A DNA stretch of 64,000 nucleotides from assembly GCA_016916535.1 (NCBI GenBank), contig CP070276.1, positions 1,488,001-1,552,000 on the forward strand, in the 5' to 3' direction. The position numbers and the translations under genes are program-made. Below are positions 31,588-61,088 of this stretch, piece after piece. Each line of letters starts with the position of its first letter. The first letter of the stretch is position 1. Origin of the DNA: Dysgonomonadaceae bacterium zrk40 (GTDB lineage Bacteria; Bacteroidota; Bacteroidia; Bacteroidales; Dysgonomonadaceae). The notes below the pieces were generated by a model. The model made no database searches. It was not told where the DNA came from and was given only the letters and a program-made list of their open reading frames with translations.

Positions 31588-32373
31588 TTACTCCAGAATC
31601 ATCAGCTCCACCTTCCGGAAGTCAATGGGATGACTTTCGCTTTGAAGAGAGATAGTTCCCTTGTGCAGCATCTTGTCCCCATGATTGAGGTCGAACAACA
31701 GGGGATAAGTGGCATCCCGCTCGTCCAGCTGCGGCTGGTTGTATTGCAACACGGTATCGCCGTTCACCACATGATAAAGCACCTCATTGCCCCTCACCTC
31801 CAACTCTGCTGTCACCCACTCCTCTCCGAAGAAGAACTCCGATGTTGAACTGATGCAGTGATCCAAGATCAACTCGTCCCCCATCACGATGTTGGTGCCG
31901 GGGGTACAGACATTCATGTTGGTGCGTTCCACCAGTGAATCGCTGCCAAGCAACTGCACCTCCACCGAGGTGGGAAAATCCTGGTCGAGTGTCATCGTCT
32001 CCGGACGCTGACCATGTACCATGATGCCGGAGTTGCGGTAGGCCCACCCCTCGCCGCCGGGACATTGCTCACCCACGAAACGATATTCCACCCGCAACTT
32101 GTAGTGCGACAGCTCATCCTTGTAGAAAAGGTGACCGAACCGATTGTTAAAAGCATCATACTGATCATAGCGCACCTTGAGCAAACCATCCTCCACACGG
32201 AAGGTGTTGCCATAGTTGTCACCGGCCTCATAGCCGGTGATCTTGGGCGTCCAACCGGTCAGGTCCTCCCCGTTGAAGAGTGAGATCCACTCATTCTGCT
32301 CGCTTTTCTGCTGACATGAACCCAGCAACAGTAAAATCAGGAAAGGGGTCGTCCAAAAAAGAATCTTCTTCAT
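31588..32373 (-). CDS. DUF1080 (3-keto-disaccharide hydrolase-type) lipoprotein
   Basis: 261 residues, lipoprotein signal with Cys20 (LLGSC). A single DUF1080 jelly-roll domain: WISLFNGEDLTGWTPKITG at the start, YRNSGIMVHGQ in the middle. Relatives in Bacteroides act with Gfo/Idh/MocA oxidoreductases on 3-keto sugars, cleaving the glycosidic bond by hydrolysis or elimination. No oxidoreductase gene adjoins this copy; the tandem-domain relative at 36627-37979 has one. A -7 box lies at 32417-32424. Confidence 0.88.
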   Translation of the reverse strand: MKKILFWTTPFLILLLLGSCQQKSEQNEWISLFNGEDLTGWTPKITGYEAGDNYGNTFRVEDGLLKVRYDQYDAFNNRFGHLFYKDELSHYKLRVEYRFVGEQCPGGEGWAYRNSGIMVHGQRPETMTLDQDFPTSVEVQLLGSDSLVERTNMNVCTPGTNIVMGDELILDHCISSTSEFFFGEEWVTAELEVRGNEVLYHVVNGDTVLQYNQPQLDERDATYPLLFDLNHGDKMLHKGTISLQSESHPIDFRKVELMILE

Positions 32374-36626: not shown

Positions 36627-37979
36627 TTAAAGCTCCTTGATCTTGATATTCTGAAACCAGACCTCATCGCCATGGTCTTGTAACAGGAGCAATCCCTCTT
36701 CCGCATTTCCGAAGTTGGGCCAATCCTTGTACTTGCTGGTCTTTACAAGCTGGTTCCACTCCTCGTTGTTGCGTTCATATTCAACAATTTTCACCCCGTT
36801 AAGCCAGTGCTCCACATGGTTTCCCTCCACCACCACCATGGCAGTGTTGAAAAATCCGTTGCGGAAGGGCTTGTCAGCGGGAGCAGGAATTAGGTCGTAG
36901 AGTGATCCCAGTGTCCGGTTTCCATCCTTACCCATTTTTGCATCGGGGTGACGTCTGTCATCCAGTATCTGGTATTCACAACCGATGGCCGATCCTTGAC
37001 CCTTGTTCAGATTGGTATCCACAAAATATTTAATGCCGCTGTTGGCTCCCTCGGTGATCCGGAAATCGACCTTCAGCATGAAATTCTTATAGGGTTTTGT
37101 GGTCACAATGTCACCTCCGTTGGTGGACTCTCCCCCATCGCTCTTGTGTACCTTGAGGATGCCCTCCTCCATGGACCATCCCTTTTCGGGGAAGCCATCC
37201 AGTTTGGCACCCCGCCAACCTTCGCTGCTGCTGCCATCCCAGAGGAGTTTCCACCCTTCGGCAGCCTCTTTTTCAGAGATGGTGTTGGCAATCTGGTTGA
37301 TCTGTTTCACTTCGCTGTTTTCCGGCATTTTGTATTGCTCCAGCTCATCGGTAAGGATACGGATGTTGCGCCATGCCACCGTTTTCCCCTCCTGTTCGGC
37401 ACTTCCTATGGAATGTACCTGCAATGCGATAAAGCCTGAAGCGGTGGTGTTGTCGAGCAGGTCGGTGCAAGGAACGTCGTTTACCCAGGTACGAATGGTG
37501 TTACCAATGGCCTCGACACGCGCCTTGTTCCACTCACCGTTTTTGAATGCTTTTTGCCCTTCGGGGTTGTAATTCAACGAGTAGAGCCATCCGCGGCGCG
37601 CTTCGTCGTAAACACCACCGGTCCAGGCTCGTTCTGAGGGATCGATCTCGAACTGATAACCGTGTACCCTTCCCTCGTGAAATTCCGGCAGACTGTTGCT
37701 GCGAAACTGCACACCTGAGTTGAGGCCATCGTCCACTTTGAATTCAAATTCGAGGATAAAATCGTCATACACTTCATTGGTTGCAAGGAAGGTATTGGGG
37801 GTGTTCAGTTGGGAAATGCCCACGATGGCACCATCCTCCACCTTGTATTCGGCGGTACCGTTTAACTTTTCCCATCCTTCCAGGTTCTCTCCGTTAAACA
37901 GATCCTGCCATTGCGGCCCCTGAGCACAGGAGGTGAGCAATGCGACAATTGTGATCAGCAGTAAACTTCTCTTTTTCAT
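36627..37979 (-). CDS. Tandem DUF1080 lipoprotein
   Basis: 450 residues, lipoprotein signal with Cys18 (LLTSC). Two DUF1080 domains: about 25-215 ([15 protein letters not shown] ... SGVQFRSN) and about 240-450 ([15 protein letters not shown] ... [10 protein letters not shown]). The family includes secreted 3-keto-glycoside-cleaving enzymes. It is the last gene of the leftward operon, 64 nt after a Tat-signal Gfo/Idh/MocA oxidoreductase that could make the 3-keto substrate. The duplication may give a second active or a binding domain. Confidence 0.87.
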
Positions 37980-38043
37980 TGTTCCTTATCTTTAAGTTTA
38001 AAAAAACTCTGTTTCAATTTTTCAAGATTCAACGTCCCAGATC

Positions 38044-39465
38044 TTAGATCCGGTAGAAATCTTCCCATCCTTTCCTGGGAGGTTCACCCGTCAGGAAGGC
38101 ATCGGCAAAGGCATCGTTGGTCACCCGCTTGGTTTCCCTGTCGAACACTATCTTTCGGTTGAGACGCTGTGCGGCAACCCCCATACTGAATACCTGGCTA
38201 AGCGGAGCCGCGATTTCAAACGGTGAACGGGTCTTCTCTTTGCCCTGGCAGGCCAGCAGGAAGTTCGCAAAGTGGTTTGAGGGGCTTTCCGGCACCTCCG
38301 GCAGATGTTTTTCCATCTCTTTTGCCTTCTCATCGGGGATGATGCTGAGGGTGCTGCCATGTGAGCCACCCTTGAAGGTCAGTTCCTTGCTATAGATCTC
38401 CTTGCCCGGGTTCAGCTTGGCAGGTTGTATCTTCCCTCCTGCAACGGAAGGAATGTTGGGATCAATCTCCGAAACACCATACCCATCCGGTACAGCGGGG
38501 ATATTGTCCAGTCCGTCGTACCAGGTAATCACCAGCGGCGGCATCTCACCACGGGCGGGGAACTTGAACTCGATGGTACTCGACATAGGGAAGAAATAGT
38601 CGTTGTGACCACTCAATCGCAGCGGATTCACCTCTTCTGGCAACCCCAGGTCGAGGAACTGATGGGCGGTATCGATGATATGTGCTCCCCAGTCGCCCAG
38701 GGCTCCCATCCCGAAATCATACCAGCAGCGCCACTGACCGTAGTGAAAATCCTTGTTATAGGAGTGGTGATCACGAGACATCAGCCAGAGATCCCAATCC
38801 AGTGTTTCGGGAATTGCTTCGGCTGGTGGAAACTGTTTGATGTTGGGATCCCAGCCGTGCCAGCGACGCGGGTTGTTCATATGGGCAGTGATGGCGGTCA
38901 CATCCTTGATGATGCCTGCCTCTTTCCACGCCTTGAACTGGAAGTAGTTGGCCTCGGAGTGTCCCTGGTTCCCCATCTGGGTTACCACGTTGGGATATTT
39001 CCTTGCAGCCTTGAGCAGCAGCTCCGACTCGTGAAAAGTACGGGTAAGCGGCTTCTCCACGTAGACATGTTTTCCCTCTGCCATCGACATCATCACGGCG
39101 GGAAAGTGGGCGAAATCGGGGGTGGCGATGGCCACTGCCTCAATCTCGTTACCCATCTTGTCGAACATCTCCCGGAAATCTTTAAATCTTTTCGCGTTGG
39201 GGAACTTTGCCAAAGCTTTCTGGGTATGCTCTGCACCGAGGTCCACGTCACAAAGGGCCACCACGTTTGCCAGACCGGTCCTGTCGAAATCGTTGATGAT
39301 CTCCCATCCCCGGTTGCCGATGCCGATTTGTGCCAGGTTCACTTTCTTGTTGGCACCATGCACCCTGTTAAAACTGGCGGCACTGGTATGCGTGTGGACT
39401 CCACCCAATGCAAGTCCTGCTGAGGCCAATGCAGCCTTTCTTAGAAAATCTCTTCTTGTTGTCAT
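38044..39465 (-). CDS. Tat-exported Gfo/Idh/MocA family oxidoreductase
   Basis: 473 residues. The N-terminus TTRRDFLRKAALASAGLAL is a twin-arginine signal, so the protein is exported already folded with its NAD(P) cofactor. The Rossmann part (VNLAQIGIGNRGWEI), EKPLTRTFHESELL, and the long C-terminal domain with WYDFGMGALGDWGAHI are all present. Related Bacteroides proteins oxidise C3 hydroxyls of sugars bound in glycosides. The next gene encodes a DUF1080 protein, which would cleave the keto sugar. Substrate unknown; pectin-derived glycosides are likely from context. Confidence 0.88.
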   Translation of the reverse strand: MTTRRDFLRKAALASAGLALGGVHTHTSAASFNRVHGANKKVNLAQIGIGNRGWEIINDFDRTGLANVVALCDVDLGAEHTQKALAKFPNAKRFKDFREMFDKMGNEIEAVAIATPDFAHFPAVMMSMAEGKHVYVEKPLTRTFHESELLLKAARKYPNVVTQMGNQGHSEANYFQFKAWKEAGIIKDVTAITAHMNNPRRWHGWDPNIKQFPPAEAIPETLDWDLWLMSRDHHSYNKDFHYGQWRCWYDFGMGALGDWGAHIIDTAHQFLDLGLPEEVNPLRLSGHNDYFFPMSSTIEFKFPARGEMPPLVITWYDGLDNIPAVPDGYGVSEIDPNIPSVAGGKIQPAKLNPGKEIYSKELTFKGGSHGSTLSIIPDEKAKEMEKHLPEVPESPSNHFANFLLACQGKEKTRSPFEIAAPLSQVFSMGVAAQRLNRKIVFDRETKRVTNDAFADAFLTGEPPRKGWEDFYRI

Positions 39466-39497
39466 GTAAATATGATTTGTTGTTACACAATGACATT

Positions 39498-40781
39498 TTA
39501 CTCAAAACGATCTTTGTATGCCCATAAACCCAGGGCCGGACTGGAGATGTAATAGAACTCCTCACCATCGGGAAGGGTGTTGAACCCTTCGCTGAGCTGT
39601 GAAGGATCGTAGCGTTGCATCATGCGATCGATGTCATCCCATTGAAAACCTACACTTTCGATCTCCTCGCGGGTAAGGTTTTCAACTCCTTTCCCGGGAC
39701 AGTAAGTGACCGAAAAGCGCCCCTCCGAGGAGCCGTGAATCAAGTGGGCAGCTGCTCCCAGGTTATCCCGCAGCTCGCCGTTCTCCTCCACCGCCTTCAG
39801 GGTGTGGGGGGTACCGAAATAGCCATATTTGCGGATCAATCGATCGATGGTCTTGTCCTCACCGAATTCCTTGAGTGCAGGAGCCAGGACAATCAGTTCG
39901 CCTCCGTCGGCAATAGCCATGCGGGTACGGTAAATCGACTTGTTTCCCAGCCAGGTGCTCTTGAACTCGGTGGGATCGAGCCAGACCACCACTTTATGAA
40001 GCGGTTTCTCAACCATTACGAAGTTCACCTCCAAAGAGAGCCTGGCAGCCCGGTCGAACACATCAAAGTCGTCACCCACAAAGAGTCCGTAGGTCTGCTG
40101 CTCACCATTCCCATTCACTCCCACCACCGTCAACACGTAGATGATGGGCAGATGGTTGGCAAAGTGGTCGGTGGCGTAATTAAAGACACGGCGTACCGGC
40201 GTATCTGCACGCCCCATCATCCGCTCCATCCCGTAGACAGCACCGATGTAATGGCTTTTGTTGATCCCTTCACTACCACCGGTACCTACGAAGATGTTCT
40301 TGTTGTAGTTGGCCATCCCCACCACTTCGTGGGGCACCACCTGTCCAATGGAAAGAATCAGGTCAAACTCACCTTCCACCAGCAATCGGTTTACCTGGGC
40401 CGGCCATGAGAAATTGACCTTCCCCTCCGAAACCTCATGAATATAGCTCTCAGGTACCACGCCCAGGGTTACCACATCGTTGCGCCAGTCATGCTCCCGA
40501 AAGAGTGTTTTAGGTGTCCGCCCGAACATATGGCTGATCTGCGGTTCTGTCATGGGGGTATGGGTACCCAGTGCCGGTAGGATATCGGTAAGCTTCTCCC
40601 CGTAATACTCCCAGGTCATCTCTGTTAGCTCGCCTGCCCTGCTGGGCAGACGGGTGTAATCGGGCGGAACGGCCAGTACTTTCTGCCGTTCGCCCAATTT
40701 ATCCAATGCTTCATTGAGACCTTTCTTCAGATCATCGCGCGACAGCGCAGTGTCAGAAGAACCTTTCTCGTAATAAATCAT
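39498..40781 (-). CDS. LarA-family nickel-dependent racemase/epimerase
   Basis: 427 residues, no signal peptide. Residues that in LarA hold the nickel-pincer cofactor are present with the same spacing: Asp41 and Arg44 in PPDYTRLP, His74 in GTHTP, His151 in VPHEVVG, Lys161 in NYNKNIF (the cofactor-attachment lysine) and His177 in NKSHYIG. LarA homologues act on many 2-hydroxy acids, including lactate, malate and D-gluconate. Its place between gnd and the oxidoreductase, in a hexuronate operon, favours a sugar acid. Gluconate/mannonate C2 epimerisation is my preferred guess. The cofactor genes larB, larC and larE are not in the window. Confidence 0.85.
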   Translation of the reverse strand: MIYYEKGSSDTALSRDDLKKGLNEALDKLGERQKVLAVPPDYTRLPSRAGELTEMTWEYYGEKLTDILPALGTHTPMTEPQISHMFGRTPKTLFREHDWRNDVVTLGVVPESYIHEVSEGKVNFSWPAQVNRLLVEGEFDLILSIGQVVPHEVVGMANYNKNIFVGTGGSEGINKSHYIGAVYGMERMMGRADTPVRRVFNYATDHFANHLPIIYVLTVVGVNGNGEQQTYGLFVGDDFDVFDRAARLSLEVNFVMVEKPLHKVVVWLDPTEFKSTWLGNKSIYRTRMAIADGGELIVLAPALKEFGEDKTIDRLIRKYGYFGTPHTLKAVEENGELRDNLGAAAHLIHGSSEGRFSVTYCPGKGVENLTREEIESVGFQWDDIDRMMQRYDPSQLSEGFNTLPDGEEFYYISSPALGLWAYKDRFE

Positions 40782-40871
40782 CCTATTTTTGATTTAAGAT
40801 ATAAGATGTTGGATTTCACTAACAATCAACGAATTCTCCAATCCGCAAATCAGCAAATCACCACATCATCA

Positions 40872-42326
40872 CTACACATCATAGGTGGTGGAGGCAGTGT
40901 CACCTCCGTGTCCTGTCCAGTTGGTATGGAAGAACTCACCTCTGTTTCTGTCCACCCGCTCATACTGGTGGGCGCCGAAATAGTCACGTTGTGCCTGTAG
41001 CAGGTTTGCCGGAAGGCGTTCGCTACGGAAACCATCGAAGTAACTGAGTGCCGAGGTGAGTGCCGGAACCGGTATGCCGTTCATCAGGGCGGTTGCACAA
41101 ACCCTACGCCAGCTATCCTGAGCATCTTCCACCGCCTCTTTAAAGAAGGGATCGAGCAACAGGTTCTCCAACGATGGGTTCTTGTCGAAAGCCTTCTTGA
41201 TATCACCCAGGAAGCGGGAACGGATGATGCATCCACCACGCCACATCAAGGCAATACCACCATAATTGAGGTTCCAGCCATGCTCCCTTGCCGCTTCCAT
41301 CATCAGGTCATACCCCTGGGCGTAGGAGATGATTTTGGCTCCGTAGATTGCTTTTTCCAGGTCGTTGACAAACTGCTTCTTATCTCCCTCGAACGAGGCT
41401 TTTTTGCCGTTGAGCACTTTCGATGCCTTTACGCGCAAATCTTTTTGTGCAGAGAGACAGCGCGAGAAGACAGACTCACCGATAAGCGTGAGGGGTATGC
41501 CCAGATCGAGTGCCGAGACAGCGGTCCACTTGCCGGTACCCTTTTGTCCCGCGGTATCGAGAATTTTTTCCACCAAAGGAGATCCATCTTCGTCACGATA
41601 GGCCATGATATCGGTGGTGATTTCAATCAGATAGGAATCGAGGACGCCCTGGTTCCACTTCTTGAACACCTCGTGCTGCTCGAAAGCATCCATGCCCAAT
41701 AAATCTTTCATCAAATGATACGCTTCGTTGATGATCTGCATGTCACCATACTCAATGCCATTGTGTACCATCTTCACGAAGTGGCCGGCACCGTTTTCAC
41801 CCACCCAGTCGCAACAAGGCACACCACCGTCGACCTTGGCCGAGACTGCCTGGAAGATCTCCTTCACATGGGGCCATGCATCGGGGGAACCGCCCGGCAT
41901 CATGGAGGGCCCTTTCAGGGCTCCCTCTTCACCGCCCGACACTCCGGTGCCCACATAGAGCAAGCCTTTGCTTTCCACATATTTCGTGCGACGGATGGTG
42001 TCGGGGAAGTGGCTATTGCCACCATCGATGATGATGTCTCCCGGCTCCAGCAGAGGGAGCAACAACTCGATGAAATCATCCACCGGCTTACCGGCTTTCA
42101 CCAGCATCATCACCTTGCGAGGACGTTCAATGGATGCCACAAACTCTTCCAATGAGCGGGCACCGATGAAATTCTTCCCCTTCCCTCTACCGTCCAGGAA
42201 TTGATCCACCTTTGCGACCGTTCTGTTGTAGACGGCTACGGTGTATCCTTTACTCTCCATGTTCAGGACCAGATTCTCTCCCATGACGGCGAGACCGATC
42301 AACCCAATATCTGCTTTTTCTTTCAT
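40872..42326 (-). CDS. gnd: 6-phosphogluconate dehydrogenase, decarboxylating
   Basis: 484 residues, full-length type. NADP motif GLAVMGENLVLNM, then YNRT, GTGVSGGEEGALKGPSMMPGG, and the catalytic region HFVKMVHNGIEYGDMQ (Lys) are intact. It converts 6-phosphogluconate to ribulose 5-phosphate and CO2. Unusually, it has no zwf or pgl beside it. Instead it follows a sugar-acid kinase by 24 nt in a hexuronate operon, which suggests that its substrate here comes from gluconate. Confidence 0.95.
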   Translation of the reverse strand: MKEKADIGLIGLAVMGENLVLNMESKGYTVAVYNRTVAKVDQFLDGRGKGKNFIGARSLEEFVASIERPRKVMMLVKAGKPVDDFIELLLPLLEPGDIIIDGGNSHFPDTIRRTKYVESKGLLYVGTGVSGGEEGALKGPSMMPGGSPDAWPHVKEIFQAVSAKVDGGVPCCDWVGENGAGHFVKMVHNGIEYGDMQIINEAYHLMKDLLGMDAFEQHEVFKKWNQGVLDSYLIEITTDIMAYRDEDGSPLVEKILDTAGQKGTGKWTAVSALDLGIPLTLIGESVFSRCLSAQKDLRVKASKVLNGKKASFEGDKKQFVNDLEKAIYGAKIISYAQGYDLMMEAAREHGWNLNYGGIALMWRGGCIIRSRFLGDIKKAFDKNPSLENLLLDPFFKEAVEDAQDSWRRVCATALMNGIPVPALTSALSYFDGFRSERLPANLLQAQRDYFGAHQYERVDRNRGEFFHTNWTGHGGDTASTTYDV

Positions 42327-42350
42327 TATTATCAGTTGTTTATTTGAAAC

Positions 42351-43430
42351 TTATCTCTTCACACGGGCATTACCCTTCCAGATGCTCCAGATCACCTCCT
42401 CATCGGCCGGTTGTGCATAATCGGTAAGGAAGGTTGTGGCCAGTGCACCGCTGGCCCAGGCAAACTGGATCCACCTGGCAGGATCCATCTGGCGGAGGAT
42501 GCTGTAAAGCAAGCCTCCCACAAAACCATCACCGCCACCGATACGGTCCATGACGTTGATCTTACGCAGGGGTGCTTCATGCCAGTTCCCGTTCTCATAA
42601 ACAATGGCGCCCCAGAGATGTTCGTTGGCACTGATCACCTCCCGCAAAGTGTTGGCAAAGACAGAGACATTGGGGAAAGACTTCCCGGCGTTAAGGATCA
42701 TCCCCTTGAATGCATCAAAGGTGTCACCGATATTTTCACCACCCGCTTTGGGACCTTCAATTCCGAGACAGAGCTGGAAATCCTCCTCGTTGCCGATCAG
42801 AATATCAGAGAGCGAGGCTATCTCAGAGAAAGCTACTCTCAACTCTTTTTCTCTTCCTTTCCAGAATGTTGCCCGATAGTTGAGATCGAATGAGATGAGA
42901 GTGCCATGCTTCTTGGCAAAACGGGCAATTTCCAGGCAGAAATGACTTGTATCGGGCGACAGGGCTGCGATTAGACCTGAGAGATGCACGATCTGCACAC
43001 CCTCTTTCCCGAAGATGCGTTCCAGATCGAAGTCTTTCACGTTGAGTGTCCTGCCCACCTCTCCGGCACGGTCGTTCTGTACGCGGGGACCGCGCAATCC
43101 GAAGCCACTGTCTGCAATGTTGAACTGATGGCGGTAGCCCCAGGGATCCCCCTGCGGCACCTCGGGACCCTCATATTCCATGTGCCGTGCCCGCAGATCA
43201 GATTTGATGAAAGCAGCTATGGGGCTGTCTTTCACAAAGGTGGTGAGCACTTTTACGGGCAGACCGAGGTAGGAAGAGATGCTTGCCACGTTGGTTTCAG
43301 CACTGGTAGCCTGCATCTGGAACATATTCGAACTCGGCACCGGCTGTGCGTTCACCGGTGTGATGCGGACTCCCATGCTGGTAGGTACCAGCAATGCATA
43401 TTTATAATCTTTTTTTAGTTCAAGTGACAT
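42351..43430 (-). CDS. kdgK: PfkB-family sugar-acid kinase (KDG kinase or gluconokinase)
   Basis: 359 residues of the ribokinase/PfkB fold. FDLNYRATFWKG is typical of 2-keto-3-deoxygluconate kinases. The C-terminal anion-hole motif reads GGGDGF with catalytic Asp301, instead of the common GAGD. Standard annotation would be KDG kinase, which fits a hexuronate operon. Its neighbours (gnd 24 nt downstream, an SDR upstream) also allow phosphorylation of gluconate. Sequence alone does not decide. Confidence 0.8.
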   Translation of the reverse strand: MSLELKKDYKYALLVPTSMGVRITPVNAQPVPSSNMFQMQATSAETNVASISSYLGLPVKVLTTFVKDSPIAAFIKSDLRARHMEYEGPEVPQGDPWGYRHQFNIADSGFGLRGPRVQNDRAGEVGRTLNVKDFDLERIFGKEGVQIVHLSGLIAALSPDTSHFCLEIARFAKKHGTLISFDLNYRATFWKGREKELRVAFSEIASLSDILIGNEEDFQLCLGIEGPKAGGENIGDTFDAFKGMILNAGKSFPNVSVFANTLREVISANEHLWGAIVYENGNWHEAPLRKINVMDRIGGGDGFVGGLLYSILRQMDPARWIQFAWASGALATTFLTDYAQPADEEVIWSIWKGNARVKR

Positions 43431-43468
43431 ATTGTTGATTTGTTGATTTGTTCAAGGATGAAAGCTTT

Positions 43469-44281
43469 TCAAATACTAAACGAATCGAAACCACCATCGA
43501 CGATTGCAACCGTACCGGTGACAAATCGGGATGCATCGCTGACCAGGTAATGGAGCGTTCCGAGCAAATCCTCCGGATCACCGAAGCGGCGGAAAGGTGT
43601 GTGGGCAATGATTGTGTTGCCTCTGTCGGAGTAGGAACCGTCGGGGTTGGTAAGCAGTGCCCTGTTCTGTTCAGTGATGAAGAATCCCGGACAGAGTGCA
43701 TTGACGCGAAAACTCTCACCGAACTTGATAGCGAGCTCGCCGGCAAGGTACTTGGTGAAGTTGGTCACGGCTGCCTTGGCGGCTCCATAACCGGCCACGC
43801 GAGTCAAGGGTCGCAGAGCAGAAGCCGAGGAGACATTGATGATGTTACCCTTTTTCTGCTCAACCATATACTCAGCAAATACCACGGAAGGGATCACGGT
43901 CCCCATCAGGTTCAGATCGACCACCTTGCGGAAGTCATCCATCTTCAGGTCGAAGATGTTGTTGTTGGGTCCGATGGTGGCTCCGGGCATGTTGCCCCCG
44001 GCACCGTTGATCAGCACATCGATCTTTCCGTATGCAGCCACGATATCACGTGCGTTCTGCTTCAACACGGCCTCGTCAGAGACATCTGTCTGCAGGAACA
44101 TCGCCTCACCACCGGCAGCTTTCACTTTTGCTGTCAGTTGATCACCTTTCTCCTTGTTTCTGGCCAGTACAGCCACCTTGGCACCATGTGCCGCCAGGTA
44201 CTCCACCATGGAAGTACCGAGCACGCCGGTACCTCCGGTGATGACGATCACCTTATCCTTTATGTTAAATAATTCGTACAT
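43469..44281 (-). CDS. SDR-family fructuronate/mannonate oxidoreductase
   Basis: 270 residues. Short-chain dehydrogenase: cofactor loop TGGTGVLGTSM, NGAGGN, catalytic Ser in NVSSASALRP and the YGAAK pair. SDRs of this type replace classical UxuB in many Bacteroidota and reduce D-fructuronate to D-mannonate with NAD(P)H. Context, right after uxaC-uxaE, supports this. A -7-like TAAATTTG at 44304-44311 in the 107-nt gap before it suggests an internal promoter. Confidence 0.83.
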   Translation of the reverse strand: MYELFNIKDKVIVITGGTGVLGTSMVEYLAAHGAKVAVLARNKEKGDQLTAKVKAAGGEAMFLQTDVSDEAVLKQNARDIVAAYGKIDVLINGAGGNMPGATIGPNNNIFDLKMDDFRKVVDLNLMGTVIPSVVFAEYMVEQKKGNIINVSSASALRPLTRVAGYGAAKAAVTNFTKYLAGELAIKFGESFRVNALCPGFFITEQNRALLTNPDGSYSDRGNTIIAHTPFRRFGDPEDLLGTLHYLVSDASRFVTGTVAIVDGGFDSFSI

Positions 44282-44388
44282 TTTTACATCAGTTTAGTTT
44301 GGTCAAATTTACAACAGCAATTCACCGCAAGAAAGGGATTTTACGTAAATCTCACTTCAAATAACGCTAAATTGAATTACGCCGTATA

Positions 44389-45636
44389 TTAAATGGTGAA
44401 CAATCTTCTCAGGTGGCGCTCGTAGATGTTCTCTTCCACGCAGGAACCGACCACATCGGCATATTTCTCCAACATGGAGGTGTAGGTAGTCCCCATCTCA
44501 GCAGCCACCTTGTAAGCCACGTGGATCAACTGCCGGAAGTTTGCATTGTAGTCGGGGTGTCCCGGGATATGACGCAATGTGTTGGCGTACTTCTCACTGC
44601 TCCAGCCGTTCACCTCTTCTACCGAGGGCAGCTTTGAGCCGTCGATGTCAATCACATCGGCATAGGGACCACAAAGTTCTTCCTGACGGTTGTATGAGCT
44701 CTCGTAAATCTTCTTAGCCAGTTCAAGACCTTCACCTCCGGCGACAGCCAGTCCGATTACCTCTTCAAGCCAGGTGGTACCTGCTGTTTTCAGGTGCAAT
44801 CCCTTGTCGTAGCGCAGAATGATATCAGCCATGATGGGGTAGATGGAGAACTTGTCGCTGCCCGAGTGGACACTGAGCTTCAGTTCCTGTGGCAATCCAA
44901 ATTCGCGAACGGCATAGTCGATCACCAGCACATCTTCTTCGAACTCTTTCTCAAACTGTTCCAGGTCACCCACATAGTCGACACCCTTGTTGAAGCGGCC
45001 GGTGAATTTGGGAGCGATTGTCTGTGCAGGAACGCCCTTGTCGGCCAGCATCTTCAGGATAAAGAGCAATTCAACCGGTGTTTGAGGCGATTCGACTTCA
45101 TCCATGGAGACCTCCGTGATGAAGTTACCTTCTCCCTTCTCTTTTTTCAAAAATGCGTAAATTTCCGAAGCATGTTGTGTAGCTGCCAAAAACTTGGAGG
45201 CGATTGACTCAAGCAGTTCTTTGGTTACCTGTAAAGGAGCTTCCATGCCGGGGATATTCAATTCTCCCATGTACGCGGCACAAGAGTCAACAAATGCATC
45301 CACATCTTCTTTGCTGCTTTCCTTACCAATGAAGGAGGCCACGTCGAGGGTGAAGAAATCAGAAACCTCCACATATTTGGCAACTGTTGTGAGGTTGATA
45401 TGATCGGCGTCCACGAAGTAAAGCCCCTTGAATCCGAGTGCCTTTACTGCCTCATCGGCCTCCTTGCGGGTGTCGGCCGGAGCTGTACCTACGTAGATAT
45501 GCTCACGGTTTGATTTATTCCAAACAGGGCTAATATCCAGTCCCTTTTCATTCGCTTTCATGATGGCTTTCAACTGTGCCTTGCCCTGGTAGGTGAAACG
45601 GTCACCCACACCGATACTGTATTTACCTAATTTCAT
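44389..45636 (-). CDS. uxaE: Tagaturonate epimerase
   Basis: 415 residues. Sequence features such as GKYSIGVGDRFTYQGKAQL, LYFVDADHINL and SVHSGSDKFSIYPIM fit the UxaE family, metal-dependent epimerases that convert D-tagaturonate to D-fructuronate and so merge galacturonate with the glucuronate route. It lies 12 nt after uxaC. With UxaE, galacturonate breakdown needs no altronate enzymes (UxaA, UxaB), and none are present here. Confidence 0.88.
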   Translation of the reverse strand: MKLGKYSIGVGDRFTYQGKAQLKAIMKANEKGLDISPVWNKSNREHIYVGTAPADTRKEADEAVKALGFKGLYFVDADHINLTTVAKYVEVSDFFTLDVASFIGKESSKEDVDAFVDSCAAYMGELNIPGMEAPLQVTKELLESIASKFLAATQHASEIYAFLKKEKGEGNFITEVSMDEVESPQTPVELLFILKMLADKGVPAQTIAPKFTGRFNKGVDYVGDLEQFEKEFEEDVLVIDYAVREFGLPQELKLSVHSGSDKFSIYPIMADIILRYDKGLHLKTAGTTWLEEVIGLAVAGGEGLELAKKIYESSYNRQEELCGPYADVIDIDGSKLPSVEEVNGWSSEKYANTLRHIPGHPDYNANFRQLIHVAYKVAAEMGTTYTSMLEKYADVVGSCVEENIYERHLRRLFTI

Positions 45637-45648
45637 CTTATCTAAATA

Positions 45649-47055
45649 TTAAAAGTTAAAAAAATTGTTTGCGTTGTGGTAGGAGATGTTTTCTACCATC
45701 TCACCGAGAAAGGCCATTTCAGAGGCAGGGAGCAATCCTTTTTCCAAATCATCACCAATCAGGTTGCAGAGAATCCTGCGGAAATACTCGTGTCGCGGAT
45801 AGGAGAGGAAGCTGCGCGAGTCGGTAAGCATCCCCACAAAACGACTCAACAGCCCCAGGTTGGAGAGTGAGTTCATTTGAGCTTCCATGCCTGTCTTTTG
45901 ATCAAGGAACCACCAACCCGATCCAAACTGTATCTTTCCGGCAACGGAGCCATCCTGGAAATTACCGATCATGGTCGCTATCATATCATTGTCACGCGGA
46001 TTGAGATTGTAAATAATGGTCTTTGCCAGTTTGTTGTCTGTGTCGAGCTTGTCGAAGAAGCGGCTCATGGCCTTGGCTACGGTGAAGTCACCTATTGAGT
46101 CAAAGCCTGTATCGGGGCCCAGCTTGTTAAAGAGGCGTGTGTTGTTGTTACGGATAGCACCGTAGTGGAACTGTTGGGTCCATCCTTTCTCCCAGTCCAT
46201 AAGGGCACCTTCGTGCAACATGGCCGATTTAAATTTTCTGATCTCCTCTCCTGTCAGCTCATTTCCGCCATATACCTTGTCAAAGATCGCTTCGATCTCT
46301 TTTCCTGTATATTCTTCGGCATAAAACTCTTCAATCCCGTGATCGGAAAGCTTGCAACCCACCGAAGCAAAGAAGTCGTGCCGGTTACGCAGTGCTTCAA
46401 TCAGATCGCTGAATTTGCTGATGGTGACACCGGACACTTCTGATAATTTCTCAAGATAGGCCCGGTAATCCTTGACGTTCTCCACCGCCATTGCCTTGTC
46501 GGGACGCCAGGTGGGCAATACCTTGATGGCAAACCCCTCCTCTTTTAAAGAGAGATGATGCTCCAGCGAGTCTACAGGATCATCGGTGGTGCACACCACC
46601 TTCACGTTGAACATCTTCATCAGACCCCTGGCAGAGTATTCAGGAGTTCTCAGCTGTTCCGTACAACGATCATAGATCTCCCGGGCGGTAGTGGGGTTCA
46701 ATAGTTTCTCCACGCCAAATGCGGACTTCAGCTCGAGGTGTGTCCAATGATACAATGGGTTTCGCATGGTGTAAGGCACCGTTTCCGCCCACTTCTCAAA
46801 TTTCTCCCAGTCGCTGGTATTCTTTCCGGTACAGTATTTTTCATCCACACCGTTGGTACGCATGGCACGCCACTTGTAATGATCGCCTTCGAGCCAGATC
46901 TGACCAAGGTTGTCGAACCGGTGATCTTCTGCGATATAGGCAGGGTTCAAATGACAATGGTAGTCAATGATGGGCTGTTTTGCCGCGTGCTCATGATAGA
47001 GCTGACGTGCAGCATCACTTTGCAATAAAAAATCTTCGTGAATAAATGGTTTCAT
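45649..47055 (-). CDS. uxaC: Uronate isomerase
   Basis: 468 residues from MKPFIHEDFLLQSDAARQL; the frame is open 34 codons further, through the promoter box, and that part is rejected. It isomerises D-galacturonate to D-tagaturonate and D-glucuronate to D-fructuronate. PIIDYHCHLNP supplies the metal-ligand His pair; LTDSRSFLSYPRHEYFRR near the C-terminus is a family hallmark. First gene of the leftward operon, preceded by TATCTTTG at 47146-47153. It lies directly downstream of the hybrid sensor gene. Confidence 0.95.
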   Translation of the reverse strand: MKPFIHEDFLLQSDAARQLYHEHAAKQPIIDYHCHLNPAYIAEDHRFDNLGQIWLEGDHYKWRAMRTNGVDEKYCTGKNTSDWEKFEKWAETVPYTMRNPLYHWTHLELKSAFGVEKLLNPTTAREIYDRCTEQLRTPEYSARGLMKMFNVKVVCTTDDPVDSLEHHLSLKEEGFAIKVLPTWRPDKAMAVENVKDYRAYLEKLSEVSGVTISKFSDLIEALRNRHDFFASVGCKLSDHGIEEFYAEEYTGKEIEAIFDKVYGGNELTGEEIRKFKSAMLHEGALMDWEKGWTQQFHYGAIRNNNTRLFNKLGPDTGFDSIGDFTVAKAMSRFFDKLDTDNKLAKTIIYNLNPRDNDMIATMIGNFQDGSVAGKIQFGSGWWFLDQKTGMEAQMNSLSNLGLLSRFVGMLTDSRSFLSYPRHEYFRRILCNLIGDDLEKGLLPASEMAFLGEMVENISYHNANNFFNF

Positions 47056-47153: not shown

Positions 47154-47174
47154 ACAATTTCTAATTTAACTTTT

Positions 47175-50100
47175 TCACCCCAATTCATTTTCTTGAGTTG
47201 CCGATACCGGAATAACGTTCATCTTCCTGTATTCTGTTGGCGTCATCCGGTATTTATTCTTGAAACATCTGGAAAAGTACTTGGCATCGTTCATACCCAC
47301 CATGTAAGAGATCTCCTTGATGGTTAAATCTTCCTGTATCAGCAACACGGCAGCATGTTGCATCAACACATCCCGCACATACTCCACCGGTGCCAGACCG
47401 GTGAGCCCTTTCACCTTCTTGAAAAAAACGGAGCGGCTCATACCCATCTCCATTGCCAGGTCTTCAATCACATAATCATTATTACCCAGGCGCTCTTCAA
47501 TGAACCTGTTGATTGATTGAATAAACGTCAGATCCTTGTCGTTGACAGCTGTTTCGTTTTTGCTGATCTCTTCCGATATCGTTCCGGGTGAGCGGTAGAC
47601 CCTGTTGCGGTAAAAATTCTGCAATTCATTTCTCCTTTGCAACAGACTTTTCACTCTCGCCTTGAAGAATGTAACGCTGAAGGGTTTGGAAATGTACTCA
47701 TCAGCCCCCTGCTCAAATCCCTCCAGCTTACTCTCTAATGTTGTTTTGGCCGTGAGTAGCAAAAAAAGAATGTGACTGGTCTGGACGTTCTTACGAATAT
47801 TCTCCAACAATTGCATGCCATCTGCTTCAGGCATCATGATATCACTGACAATGAAATCGGGCATCAGCTCCTGTGCTTTCTCAAATCCCTCCAAGCCATT
47901 CGATGCTTCATGCACTTCGTAATCCTCTTCCAGGATGGAACGAATAAACTGACGCAGATCCTCATCATCTTCCACAACCAACACCAGGGGATGTTCATTC
48001 ATACGGGTGTACACCTCACAGTGAGCCGTTGTACTATTTTGTGCCTCCTCAATCTCTGTTTCTCTCCCACTGAACGTAGTTTCATCGATGGTAACCTCAG
48101 GCCCGAAATGTGCAATCCCCTTTTTGAAGAAGAGGGTAAAGCAGCTGCCCTGGTTCACTTCGCTCTCCACTACGATGCGTGCCATATGTTTGTCGGCCAG
48201 CTCCTTCACGATGGAGAGGCCTATGCCGGTACTGGGTTTGCTCTTGTCTTCGTTGAACGATTCAAAACGCCTGAACAACCGTGCCTGCTTCTCCTTTGAG
48301 ATGCCTGACCCGGTATCCCTGATCTCAACAGACAACTCGTTGTCTTGGTTGTAGAGGGTGAGGGTGATTGAACGGCCCGCCGGGGTGTACTTGAACGCAT
48401 TTGAAAGTAGGTTCAGGATGATCTTCTCCAAAGCTTCACCATCGGCCCAGATAATTGCATCGCCGGCACGGTTCACGAACCGGTAGTCAATCTTTCTGAT
48501 CTCCGCATTTTTGACATACCCCTCGAAAAGATTCTCAATAAACGGGGCAATCTCAATCCTGTGCACGGTAAGTGGCAACTGTGACATCTTCTGGAAATCG
48601 AGGATCTGGTTGACCATGTCCAGCAACCGGTTGGTGTTCTTGGAGACCAACTTGAGCTGATTCTTCACAAGCGAAGGAGTACTGCTGCTGGAGAGGAGAT
48701 TCTCTATTGGCGAAACAATCATGGTGAGCGGAGTCCGGATCTCGTGAGAGATATTGGTGAAGAATCGTGTCTTGATCTCTGATTCCCGTTTCTCCAGGAT
48801 GATCTTGTTACGCATCCTGTAAAAGGTATAGAGTATCTTAAAGGTAATATACAGTATCAACAACAGCAATAACACGTAGATTAAATAAGCCCATCCGGTT
48901 GCCCAGAAAGGAGGCATCACTTCGATGGCCAGGAGTCGCTCATTCTCTGCCCACACACCGTCGCTGTTAGTCGACTTAACACGGAACAGATACTTTCCAG
49001 GGGAGAGATTGGTATAGTTGGCTATTCTCTGATTGCCGGAAAAATTCCACTCCTTGTCGAACCCATCCAACTTATAGGCGTAAAAGATATTCTCAGGATC
49101 GATGTAATCGAGTGCTGCAAACTCAATACTGAAAAAATTCTGGTTGTGCTTCAGATGCAACCTGTCAGTCAGATGAATGTCACGTTTCAGCGGACCATCA
49201 GGCGTGATGGGTACGGAACGGTTGAATAGCCTGAACTGCACCAATGCCAGGTAGGGATTAAAAGTGTTGTTCCTCACCTGATCGGGATCAAAAAGAATCA
49301 TTCCGTGTGAGTACCCGAATAGCATTCTCCCGTCACGCAGCCGGCACCTGGAGTCTTCAGAGAAATTGTTTCGTTTCAACAGCCGTTTCATCTCACTGAA
49401 GTTCTCAAATGTCTCATCGCTACGGTTGAATTTGGTCAGCCCACCTTCGCTGCCAACCCAGATGTTACCGAGCCGGTCCTCCTGTAAAGAAAGAATGATG
49501 TTGGAGGGGAGTCCATGGTTGCTATCGTATGTCTCGAATAGAATCGGGAATCCCATACTATCGGTTTCCGACACCCGGCTGATCCCCCCCCCGAAGCTAC
49601 CGATGAAAGTCTCTCCATCCTCAGTGGTACAAATGTCGATGATATCATTGGCACCCACAGTGCCGGGATCATCGCTGTTGTGAACGTAGGTCTTGTAAGA
49701 GATCGCATCGGCGCTTCTGAAATCGGGGTCAAACATAATCAAGCCTAAAGTTGTTCCCACACAAATATTCCCGTAGCGGTCCTCGTTGATGATTCGCACC
49801 TGATCACCCAGGCTGAAGGGATAGCCATTTAGTCCGTTTCCATGGTGTAGCACCCTCTCACCGCCGGTACCGTGGAGTATCAGGTTGATTCCACCTCCAA
49901 ATGTCCCAACCCAGATATTCCCATTCTTGTCTTCATAGATGGAGTAAACGTGGTTGTCACTCAGCGAGTGGATATCTCCCGGGGTATGTTGTATCCGGTG
50001 GATCGCATAGGTCTCACCACCCTCATCCGGTGTCAGCCGGTAAATACCTTCTCCCTTGGTGCCGATCCATATGTTTTGTTGGGAATCTTCTGTGATGCAA

Positions 50101-51605
50101 TAGGCGATGCCTCTCAGCGGATTGCCCTTGCCGATTGTACCCTTCTCGGTGAGAATACCCTTTTCCTTTAGTGAAGCATCGTAGAGATGGATCATCCCAT
50201 CTTTGGTGGCAGCCCATATGGTGCCTTGTGAATCCTCGAAGATGGGACGAACATCATTGCTGATGGTAGAATGGATATTGTCGTTCAGTAATATAGACCG
50301 AAACTGACTGTCATCAAAGAAGATCACCTTTTCCAGTCCGTGTGACCGGGTACACATCCAGAGGTTTCCTTGCCTGTCGGAGTAGGCTGAGTGCATCATG
50401 TTGGAAAACAACCAGGAAGGAGAGAACGGTTCGTTGTAGAAGGGGATCAGATGGTCAGTCTCCGGGTCATAAAGTGAGAATCCCCCCCCCCGGGGATGAA
50501 TCCAAAGACGATCCTCAATGTCTTCAAAGATAAAAAAGTTGGGGGGAAATACACTCGTTTCAGTACTCTCAATGAATGGCTCGTAATTACGATATTGACG
50601 AGAATAAGGAATGAACCTTGCGACCCCGAGGTGATCTGTTTCGAACCACAGATTCCTGTTTTTGTCCAGGTAATAGGAAAAGATCTGAGCAGAAGTCATT
50701 TCAGGGAGAGTTTGCCGGTTATAAATCTCCACGCTGCCATCGTGAGTGTTGTATATAACGAAACCGCTATGAGATGAGATCACTGCAATCTTATCTGTTG
50801 AGATTTCATCGATGGCAATCACATCGGTGGTCAAACCTGTGTGCAATGGATGAAAGCTCCCTTTCTTCTTGTCGTAACGCCAGATGACACCTTTATCAGC
50901 ACCAAACCAAATCTCCTCGTTCAGTTCTAAGACGCAGAAAAAGGAAAACTCATCGGAAAAAGGTGTATTGGTCGCCGGATGGAAGTAAAAAATGGGCACA
51001 CTGCTTCCGGCCTCAAGGAAAGTAAGACCTCTGCCGGTAAGGAACCAGCAATTCCCCTCACTGTCTTCATGCACCCCGTTCACCCGGTTGTCGGTAAGAT
51101 TGTGATTGCGCGTATGATACTGATTGGCATGAAACAGTGAGTCCGTGACAACGATGCATCCATCTTCTTCAGACAGAAGCCAGACATTCCCATTTGATGA
51201 AGAAATGATACCGGATGCAGCAAAGGGATGACCCTCGAGACCCGAAATAGCTCCTGTACCGGTAAAGGTCTCCGTGCGGACATCAAAACGATAAGCATGG
51301 TTGTCGTATGTCAGGGTCCAGATGTTACGGTAACGATCCTCAAAGAGGTGATCAATCCTACTGCTCTGTGATGCAATATCAGTGCTACCGGGCAGGTGGT
51401 AGGTTTTGAAGGTATAACCATCGAACCTGCTCAGGCCATCCCAGGTGCTGAACCACATGAATCCGCTCCGATCTTGCAGGATATCGGTGATGGTGTGTTG
51501 CGGGAGTCCATCCTCTGGACCGTAATGAACAAAGTAAGCCTCCGGTTGTGCCTTGAGGGGAACAACAACCACGAGAATAAAAAACAGCAGAATTTTTATG
51601 TTCAT
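47175..51605 (-). CDS. Hybrid two-component system sensor/regulator (HTCS)
   Basis: 1,476 residues from MNIKILLFFIL, chosen for its signal peptide. Order: periplasmic two-component-propeller repeats (about 20-810, many DxxGxxWxGTxGGG-type units), Y_Y_Y domain (about 815-895), membrane helix (about 902-925), histidine kinase with phospho-His954 in NISHEIRTPL and ATPase domain, receiver with phospho-Asp1255 in VSDIMMP, and C-terminal AraC-type HTH (about 1375-1470). HTCSs sense oligosaccharides released from a polysaccharide and activate the adjacent utilisation locus, here pectin-related. Within the propeller, runs of 10 G (50482-50491) and 9 G (49584-49592) encode Gly triplets and could slip. 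A -7 box (TATATTTG, 51628-51635) lies just upstream. Confidence 0.95.
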   Translation of the reverse strand: MNIKILLFFILVVVVPLKAQPEAYFVHYGPEDGLPQHTITDILQDRSGFMWFSTWDGLSRFDGYTFKTYHLPGSTDIASQSSRIDHLFEDRYRNIWTLTYDNHAYRFDVRTETFTGTGAISGLEGHPFAASGIISSSNGNVWLLSEEDGCIVVTDSLFHANQYHTRNHNLTDNRVNGVHEDSEGNCWFLTGRGLTFLEAGSSVPIFYFHPATNTPFSDEFSFFCVLELNEEIWFGADKGVIWRYDKKKGSFHPLHTGLTTDVIAIDEISTDKIAVISSHSGFVIYNTHDGSVEIYNRQTLPEMTSAQIFSYYLDKNRNLWFETDHLGVARFIPYSRQYRNYEPFIESTETSVFPPNFFIFEDIEDRLWIHPRGGGFSLYDPETDHLIPFYNEPFSPSWLFSNMMHSAYSDRQGNLWMCTRSHGLEKVIFFDDSQFRSILLNDNIHSTISNDVRPIFEDSQGTIWAATKDGMIHLYDASLKEKGILTEKGTIGKGNPLRGIAYCITEDSQQNIWIGTKGEGIYRLTPDEGGETYAIHRIQHTPGDIHSLSDNHVYSIYEDKNGNIWVGTFGGGINLILHGTGGERVLHHGNGLNGYPFSLGDQVRIINEDRYGNICVGTTLGLIMFDPDFRSADAISYKTYVHNSDDPGTVGANDIIDICTTEDGETFIGSFGGGISRVSETDSMGFPILFETYDSNHGLPSNIILSLQEDRLGNIWVGSEGGLTKFNRSDETFENFSEMKRLLKRNNFSEDSRCRLRDGRMLFGYSHGMILFDPDQVRNNTFNPYLALVQFRLFNRSVPITPDGPLKRDIHLTDRLHLKHNQNFFSIEFAALDYIDPENIFYAYKLDGFDKEWNFSGNQRIANYTNLSPGKYLFRVKSTNSDGVWAENERLLAIEVMPPFWATGWAYLIYVLLLLLILYITFKILYTFYRMRNKIILEKRESEIKTRFFTNISHEIRTPLTMIVSPIENLLSSSSTPSLVKNQLKLVSKNTNRLLDMVNQILDFQKMSQLPLTVHRIEIAPFIENLFEGYVKNAEIRKIDYRFVNRAGDAIIWADGEALEKIILNLLSNAFKYTPAGRSITLTLYNQDNELSVEIRDTGSGISKEKQARLFRRFESFNEDKSKPSTGIGLSIVKELADKHMARIVVESEVNQGSCFTLFFKKGIAHFGPEVTIDETTFSGRETEIEEAQNSTTAHCEVYTRMNEHPLVLVVEDDEDLRQFIRSILEEDYEVHEASNGLEGFEKAQELMPDFIVSDIMMPEADGMQLLENIRKNVQTSHILFLLLTAKTTLESKLEGFEQGADEYISKPFSVTFFKARVKSLLQRRNELQNFYRNRVYRSPGTISEEISKNETAVNDKDLTFIQSINRFIEERLGNNDYVIEDLAMEMGMSRSVFFKKVKGLTGLAPVEYVRDVLMQHAAVLLIQEDLTIKEISYMVGMNDAKYFSRCFKNKYRMTPTEYRKMNVIPVSATQENELG

Positions 51606-51627
51606 TACACTTATATTTTGCTTCCTA

Positions 51628-51635
51628 CAAATATA
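51628..51635 (-). promoter_or_regulatory. -7 promoter element of the HTCS gene
   Basis: TATATTTG on the minus strand, 22 nt before the ATG; no clear -33. The remaining 341-nt intergenic space toward SusC holds ATACA-N7-TGTAT (51726-51742) and a small stem-loop (GATGGA/TCCATC, 51887-51904). I see no convincing promoter for SusC; TATCATTG (51732-51739) is one base off. Confidence 0.45.
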
Positions 51636-51946
51636 CATTTATTTGCTCTTTCCCTTCAGCATTTTCGATCTTATAACAATATATCACCCCTTAAAAACCA
51701 ATTTATCACCTCCAGTTCCATTCGAATACATTATCATTGTATGTAGAAAATGCCAAATCGCTGGATAAGAACTATTATGTCAGCGATAAAAGCAAAAACA
51801 AATGAATGTTAACGATTTAATCAGTAAGCAACACTTAAATTGAAACTCGATACGCATGAAAAAAAATGTACCTTAAAAAAGAGAGAGATGGATGAGCCTC
51901 CATCTTATATGATGAACAGTTATTTACTCACTTATTTTTAATAAAC

Positions 51947-55162: not shown

Positions 55163-55180
55163 CCCTCAAAGATTAACTGT

Positions 55181-56947: not shown

Positions 56948-56952
56948 TCATT

Positions 56953-58509: not shown

Positions 58510-58520
58510 CCCAAGACCCT

Positions 58521-58567
58521 ATACCAGTTTACGTGACTCTTTTTTAAAGAGTTACGCAAACTGGTAT
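58521..58567 (+). promoter_or_regulatory. 22-bp intra-operon stem-loop
   Basis: 58521-58542 and 58546-58567 pair over 22 positions (one mismatch, one G-U) with a 3-nt loop. It lies between the beta-helix lipoprotein stop and the GH28 start. No T-run follows, so it is not a classic terminator. It may stabilise the susCD part of the mRNA or mark a processing site. Confidence 0.7.
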
Positions 58568-58595
58568 TGTGACTAAAACTGTAACAACTGAAAGA

Positions 58596-60272: not shown

Positions 60273-60287
60273 AAAGCAGAGGTAGTG

Positions 60288-61079: not shown

Positions 61080-61088
61080 CAAATCCCG

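Follow-up and report, generated by a model that had tools for sequence, protein, structure and literature searches.

The 64,000-nucleotide stretch of DNA analyzed here (the window) comes from Dysgonomonadaceae bacterium zrk40 (contig CP070276.1, positions 1,488,001 to 1,552,000) and carries at its positions 36627 to 47055 an eight-gene operon that adjoins a pectin utilization locus. Judging from sequence comparisons, we put at about 75% the probability that this operon encodes a hexuronate route via mannonate, gluconate, and 6-phosphogluconate to ribulose 5-phosphate. Hexuronates freed by the adjoining pectin locus would enter through UxaC and UxaE, which would convert galacturonate to fructuronate (glucuronate would reach fructuronate through UxaC alone), and an SDR-family enzyme would take fructuronate to D-mannonate. 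A LarA homologue of the hexonate epimerase group LarAH18 would then invert C2 of D-mannonate to give D-gluconate, a PfkB-family kinase would turn gluconate into 6-phosphogluconate, and Gnd would yield ribulose 5-phosphate, CO2, and NADPH. The reactions of LarA and PfkB are the two that we infer.

All eight genes lie on the minus strand and belong, according to Pfam and NCBIfam profile matches, to the families named in a preliminary description of this DNA. The uronate isomerase gene uxaC (45649 to 47055; galacturonate to tagaturonate, glucuronate to fructuronate) matches PF02614 with 682 bits and NF002794 with 664 bits (cut-off, 387); its ATG start is at 47055, and the open reading frame extends to a TTG at 47157. 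It is followed by uxaE (44389 to 45636), encoding tagaturonate epimerase (tagaturonate to fructuronate; PF16257, 189 bits versus 27.1), and by the gene of the SDR fructuronate reductase/D-mannonate oxidoreductase (43469 to 44281; NF006132, 370 versus a cut-off of 281). Next come the PfkB-family kinase (42351 to 43430; PF00294), predicted to act on gluconate, with mannonate or 2-keto-3-deoxygluconate (KDG) as possible substrates, the decarboxylating 6-phosphogluconate dehydrogenase Gnd (40872 to 42326; TIGR00873, 757 versus a cut-off of 427), and the LarA homologue (39498 to 40781), a predicted D-mannonate/D-gluconate 2-epimerase. Two accessory genes complete the operon. As the preliminary description had stated, neither uxuA nor eda was found within the locus.

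The core of the operon is kept together in relatives. One isolate that carries the operon is Proteiniphilum acetatigenes DSM 18083 (L030), and the source genome would, judging by the named relatives, be Proteiniphilum-like. From at least 555 relatives of the window LarA we took the best 80, 44 of which had flanks of 5 kb or more on either side of the gene; in all 44, which are close relatives and not independent samples, PfkB, Gnd, and SDR genes lie on the LarA strand within 3.5 to 4.5 kb. Across the whole fetched stretch, UxuA was encoded in 8 of the 44 and Eda in 7. The neighbor count labeled KdgK_own, likewise 44/44, was discarded, as it mirrors PfkB homology only. Among more distant Bacteroidota loci (10 of 21 fetched in full), PfkB, Gnd, and SDR genes were near larA in 8, the exceptions being genomes that we number G114, with neither PfkB nor Gnd near LarA, and G139, with neither PfkB nor SDR. 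Together, SDR, LarA, PfkB, and Gnd would cover precisely the conversion of fructuronate to ribulose 5-phosphate.

We then examined a family sample of 101 genomes, in which LarAH18 scored above the cut-off in 53 and was missing from 46, while G086 and G097, with contig-end LarA fragments only, were counted in neither group. Near-complete genomes were defined by a completeness of at least 95%, with contamination unfiltered. UxuA and Eda were sought with PF03786 and PF01081 only, which leaves room for other mannonate dehydratases and aldolases; by these profiles, 5 of the 25 near-complete LarAH18 genomes (G040, G042, G049, G050, and G061) had neither and 4 had Eda only. Since G042, G049, G050, and G061 have a window-type LarA and an intact SDR-PfkB-Gnd-LarA core, the operon persists where the UxuA and Eda families were not found. 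UxaC is encoded nearby in G061, and neither UxaC nor UxaE was found in the fetched 19 kb of G042, G049, or G050; G040 has a divergent LarA only, with no intact window type. Family-wide, UxuA was present in 26/53 genomes with LarAH18 versus 34/46 without it, kinship being ignored.

The likely product of LarA is indicated by marine plasmids. A tblastn search of plasmid records returned four with a LarA match, two from Embleya (25 to 28% identity) and two from marine Alteromonadales. The plasmid of Saccharobesus litoralis (NZ_CP026605.1, 8395 to 10164 of the fetched locus L193) encodes a single 589-amino-acid protein in which a GntK/IdnK gluconokinase is fused to LarAH18 (TIGR01313, 184.8 versus 113.75; NF052594, 618.9 versus 500), its LarA part being 54% identical to the window LarA over residues 28 to 427. 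The fusion gene is followed by genes for LarE, LarB, a permease-like protein, UxaE, and Gnd, and uxaC lies nearby, all within 9 kb. In Catenovulum adriaticum, uxaC, a TRAP transporter, GntK, LarAH18, LarC, LarE, and an annotated larB stand in a row. The fusion points to gluconate as the LarA product, and because of it we would place epimerization before phosphorylation. The main text of the S. litoralis paper contains neither "racemase" nor "gluconokinase" (PMC7953866), and we found no paper joining gluconokinase with lactate racemase.

The window LarA matches NF052594, named in NCBIfam a nickel-dependent putative hexonate epimerase, with 659.3 bits (curated cut-off, 500), which makes it a member of LarAH18. 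The preliminary description had placed residues for the nickel-pincer nucleotide (NPN) at H74, H151, K161, and H177; all four are there, and D41, R44, and K281 are present too. In sequence order, the seven residues D41, R44, H74, H151, K161, H177, and K281 correspond to D72, R75, H108, H174, K184, H200, and K298 of LarA Lp, as mapped via an alignment with GntE2 (4NAR). They are among 23 residues that are invariant in 158 LarA rows (128 of them distinct, with identities to the window protein as low as 26%), and on this sequence evidence it is a LarAH18 enzyme without sign of decay. An AlphaFold2 model built with an alignment of 44 of the 81 available rows had a pLDDT of 88 and its best fold match in 4NAR. 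Of the GntE signature E, V, A, H (at LarA1 F175, F176, W358, and T359), E152 and V153 match, and A345 and H346 fit the A and H as read by eye, without alignment to LarA1 358/359; a PDB profile search with the 44 rows matched 4NAR only, so these two positions were not alignable.

The D-gluconate 2-epimerases GntE1 and GntE2 (LarAH19 and LarAH20) thus resemble the window LarA in NPN and catalytic residues, in the E at the loop position, and in fold, while GntE2 (GntE1 was unaligned) differs in having S156 where the window protein has V153 and is only 22 to 27% identical to it. LarA groups 19 and 20 epimerize unphosphorylated D-mannonate (PMC7583248), and LarAH15 has since been added as a GntE (PMC11770544). 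In the accessible parts of the published accounts, LarAH18/NF052594 appears as a hypothesis only, with no mention of an orphan state; the window protein scores above its cut-off.

The window kinase belongs to the PfkB family and is not a P-loop gluconokinase of the TIGR01313 type (GntK/IdnK). It reaches no equivalog cut-off; the KdgK models give at best 162 versus 700 and 100 versus 440, a weak test, given that the other PfkB of the genome, taken as KdgK, scores just 495 versus 700 and 211 versus 440. In an alignment of 43 of the 68 available rows, S43, N104, and N119, positions that we take to be KDG contacts, were invariant in the 43 window-type rows. The KdgK-type rows carry G, Y, and Y there in 10/12 cases and G, N, and Y in 2/12, and a second PfkB type (32 to 36% identical), which has G, V, and Y at these positions, occurs in 5 other LarA operons. 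KDG kinases of the PfkB family are like the window kinase in fold and among its nearest solved relatives, yet mostly unlike it at these three positions. If it forms 6-phosphogluconate, the window PfkB would be a non-homologous replacement for GntK/IdnK; to our knowledge, no PfkB has been assigned as a gluconate kinase before.

Two other orders of events on the route have to be weighed. The kinase might act first, PfkB making 6-phosphomannonate and LarA epimerizing it to 6-phosphogluconate for Gnd, and this agrees with extracts of Lactobacillus suebicus, a precedent for which the genes are unknown (PMC6978723), and with a PfkB that reaches no known equivalog. We nevertheless hold it to be very unlikely: in the marine bacteria LarAH18 is fused or adjacent to GntK/IdnK, E. 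coli GntK is cited as inactive on mannonate (PMC6978723), and the substrate of groups 19 and 20 is mannonate without a phosphate (PMC7583248). Alternatively, as the preliminary description had allowed, PfkB could be a KDG kinase, with mannonate converted to KDG by a UxuA encoded elsewhere and then passed on to Eda; LarA and Gnd would in that case have other functions. The source genome (3.47 Mb, 3 contigs, 99.9% complete) does encode UxuA, Eda, and a KdgK away from the operon, and by sequence and fold the window PfkB is closest to KDG kinases. The single Eda match, however, is clustered about 53 kb from the operon with KduI, a KduD-like SDR, and the second PfkB, a typical KdgK by its pocket residues, and because of this separate cluster the window PfkB is not needed as a KDG kinase. 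UxuA has two matches, one of which, with a UxuB-like SDR, lies beside a GH67 alpha-glucuronidase in a locus other than the operon; the classical isomerase (Ashwell) pathway, with UxuA, KdgK, and Eda next to such an operon, was not found, UxuA and Eda being encoded elsewhere in the genome. The 5 of 25 near-complete LarAH18 genomes without a UxuA or Eda match and the three kinase positions that differ invariantly from most KdgK rows also disfavor this conventional route, which we regard as highly improbable. The second UxuA, on contig C3, was discarded as host evidence, since its stretch has a foreign-looking GC content. As an observation in its own right, this C3 stretch, with a GC content of 0.58 versus 0.50, looks foreign or like a contaminant.

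In G040 (contig C46, L124:7199-11927), another LarA has taken the place of the window type. The operon there reads SDR, PfkB, divergent LarA, LarE, LarB, Gnd, a window-type larA remnant, Gfo/Idh, and DUF1080. The remnant matches about residues 18 to 82 and a short C-terminal tail, the middle being lost; the divergent LarAH18, 45% identical to the window LarA, is packed tightly with PfkB, LarE, and LarB. The arrangement suggests that both LarAs have the same function and that the incoming one arrived with some of the genes for its own cofactor pathway. In G437, a genome with LarC and LarE, a 26%-identical LarA of a more distant subfamily occupies an SDR-Gnd-PdxB-LarA-PfkB-UxaC-UxaE operon.

The known genes for the nickel cofactor are missing in most of the bearers examined, which was unexpected. 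The preliminary description had named a genome lacking larB, larC, and larE as an outcome that would speak against the route, and none of the three was found above its cut-off in the source genome, which encodes one LarA: LarC had no match, there or in any of the 101 family genomes, the best LarE match had 34.8 bits (cut-off, 150) in a 537-amino-acid frame, and the best LarB match had 55.7 bits (cut-off, 175) in a 170-amino-acid frame, the size of PurE. The route survives this finding, given that the cofactor residues do not vary and that in a relative the corresponding operon position is filled by a LarA linked to LarE and LarB; the supply of the cofactor, however, is left without an explanation. 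Among the family genomes with LarAH18, LarB and LarE were below the cut-off in 50/53; both were above it in 3/101 genomes of the family, the same three for each, where they adjoin a divergent LarAH18. These three, G040, G053 (a single contig), and G084, thus have LarB and LarE without a LarC match. The consulted literature, from which subscription journals were largely outside coverage, held no report of larA without larBCE; genomes with larBCE and without larA have been described (PMC11796402).

To see how far the gap extends, we searched for LarC and LarE in a phylum sample of 395 genomes, 41 of which had any LarA match to the model and 22 a LarAH18 above the cut-off. LarC and LarE were found in exactly the same 14 of the 41 genomes, which indicates that both models work in Bacteroidota; Thermotoga maritima, used as a control, also scores LarC. 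The 22 LarAH18 genomes had both in 7 cases and neither in 15, the source genome included, and among 15 other LarA genomes (at least 148 bits), 6 had LarC and LarE. Across the 41, scores were split, at 219 to 334 bits or no more than 46 for LarE and 389 to 482 bits or none for LarC. Several of the genomes with an orphan LarA are single contigs (G041, G049, G050, G054, G224, G288, and G402). In a tree of 39 LarA rows, whose root was not inferred, genomes with and without LarC/LarE were intermixed within LarAH18, which implies either repeated loss or gain of the cofactor genes or transfer of LarA between such genomes. No alternative NPN gene near LarA emerged among the 45 largest clusters (1327 open reading frames, 89 loci). 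A second group of orphan LarAs (L195 and L199, family f39) was observed in a different context, beside a 298-amino-acid dehydrogenase-like protein.

Because every known NPN and catalytic residue is kept, the window LarA would most likely still use NPN or a close analogue, obtained by a route other than recognizable LarB, LarC, and LarE. It is unlikely, in our estimate, that the protein does without NPN, the conserved residues holding another cofactor or metal or catalyzing a different sugar-acid reaction. Such an enzyme would account for the 50 family genomes with subthreshold LarB and LarE, for the failure to match LarC in that family, and for the 15 of 22 phylum LarAH18 genomes lacking LarC and LarE; it sits poorly with the NPN-linking Lys, the Ni-ligand His, both catalytic His, D41, R44, and K281 being constant throughout the 158 rows, and no alignment column separates the LarAH18 proteins of genomes with LarC/LarE (7 rows) from those without (20 rows). 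Quite unlikely, too, is the presence of diverged LarB, LarC, and LarE below detection: very diverged proteins do escape hidden Markov model searches, and the weak LarB-like and LarE-like matches of the source genome could be read in this way, but the scores are bimodal, LarC and LarE coincide in the same 14 genomes, and the weak matches fall in frames of PurE size and of 537 amino acids. We consider it reasonably probable that Bacteroidota contain a large LarA group in a conserved SDR-PfkB-LarA-Gnd hexuronate operon whose cofactor would not be made by LarBCE (NPN from another biosynthesis or import, or a different cofactor) and whose PfkB would represent a new lineage of gluconate kinases. Our confidence in any account of the cofactor is lower than that in the route.

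The following points weigh against the proposed drain of hexuronates through gluconate, in addition to the missing larBCE genes and the kinship of the 44 relatives. The source genome encodes UxuA, a UxuB-like SDR, KdgK, and Eda elsewhere, and UxuA and Eda are both present in 16 of the 25 near-complete LarAH18 genomes, while their absence in others was judged from the two profiles named above. UxaE was near LarA on the same strand in just 14/44 close relatives and UxaC in 10/44. Among solved structures, the window PfkB comes closest, by sequence and fold, to KDG kinases and to a Listeria PfkB without a stated substrate, and the G437 operon encodes a KdgK-like kinase (37% identity to the KdgK of the source genome), so the kinase argument is weaker for that locus. 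The operon gnd is the sole 6-phosphogluconate dehydrogenase match in the source genome (a single PF00393 match genome-wide) and must serve Zwf too: zwf occurs once, adjoining a pgl-like gene (named by eye) and with no gnd beside it. The argument of the preliminary description from a gnd without zwf or pgl therefore fails genome-wide and was discarded as evidence. Group 18 LarAs have been proposed to act on a hexonate and were outside the 13 LarAHs assayed in 2020 (PMC7583248); the parts consulted of later LarA papers contained no LarAH18 assay. The KM values of the measured GntEs for mannonate are high, 120 mM and 17 mM, and the authors of the 2020 survey cautioned that activity does not always follow from gene context (PMC7583248). 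Finally, saturated galacturonate did not support growth of S. litoralis CCB-QB4, the carrier of the fusion (PMC7953866), an argument against a functioning route in that strain. What stands of the drain as first described is the synteny in 44/44 relatives, the gluconokinase-LarA fusion, the match at E152 and V153 (and probably at A345 and H346), and the operon in genomes without UxuA and Eda matches.

The idea of such a route is not new, having been proposed earlier for another phylum, and it is probably correct here. A drain from mannonate to gluconate was proposed for Thermotoga in 2012 (Rodionova 2012, as cited in PMC7583248 and PMC6978723). The UxaE-GntE-gluconate kinase branch predicted for T. 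maritima likewise has a LarA homologue for the conversion of mannonate to gluconate, followed by 6-phosphogluconate (PMC7583248, PMC6978723); it differs in that its GntE2 is a LarAH20, about 27% identical to the window LarA, that the enzyme named is a gluconate kinase and not a PfkB, and that LarC is present. The galacturonate-phosphoketolase route of L. suebicus also leads from galacturonate via 6-phosphogluconate and 6-phosphogluconate dehydrogenase to ribulose 5-phosphate, but with phosphorylation before epimerization and with unknown genes (PMC6978723). New here are the prediction of gluconate as the PfkB substrate, the occurrence of PdxB in many operons of this kind, and the cofactor gap. 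If the route is real, Bacteroidota that feed on pectin would be able to drain hexuronates in a second way, into pentose phosphates, apart from the textbook route via 2-keto-3-deoxy-6-phosphogluconate. The lack of LarB, LarC, and LarE would mean either that NPN is made or acquired otherwise or that LarA is able to work without it, alternatives that are directly testable, and from the operon one would also predict a PfkB-family gluconate kinase and a function for PdxB next to Gnd.

Clustering of the open reading frames in the 89 LarA loci revealed a PdxB-like protein in 41, a LacI-type regulator in 49, and an MFS-like transporter in 21. The PdxB-like genes (L038:11823-12950, L197:10024-11175, L198:7936-9090, and others) are on the LarA strand at a median distance of 1.1 kb; the window operon has none. 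The one member scanned is PdxB (NF001309, 465 bits versus 434), and the more distant PdxB-like proteins of G437 and G220 fall just below this cut-off with 424 and 417. The substrate of PdxB, 4-phosphoerythronate, inhibits 6-phosphogluconate dehydrogenase (PMC6449344), and PdxB may shield Gnd at high pentose-phosphate flux.

The two accessory genes of the window operon encode a Gfo/Idh/MocA oxidoreductase exported by twin-arginine translocation (38044 to 39465; PF01408, PF19051, and the Tat-signal match TIGR01409) and a DUF1080/3-keto-disaccharide hydrolase (36627 to 37979; PF06439, 306 bits in two stretches). In the close relatives, such an oxidoreductase was encoded no more than 3 kb from LarA in 11/44 and DUF1080 no more than 5 kb away, also in 11/44. 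Upstream of uxaC and on the same strand, a hybrid two-component (HTCS-type) regulator (47175 to 51638; Reg_prop, Y_Y_Y, HisKA, HATPase_c, Response_reg, and HTH_18) separates the operon from the pectin utilization locus, which runs on the plus strand (51947 to 62270) and encodes, by Pfam matches, SusC-like and SusD-like proteins, a DUF4957/DUF5123 protein, GH28, and a GH88-family hydrolase; a pectinesterase gene lies just outside the window. Elsewhere in the window, outside the operon, there are a second 3-keto-disaccharide hydrolase (DUF1080) gene at 31588 to 32373 and a DDE transposase gene (PF13612) at 24162 to 25073.

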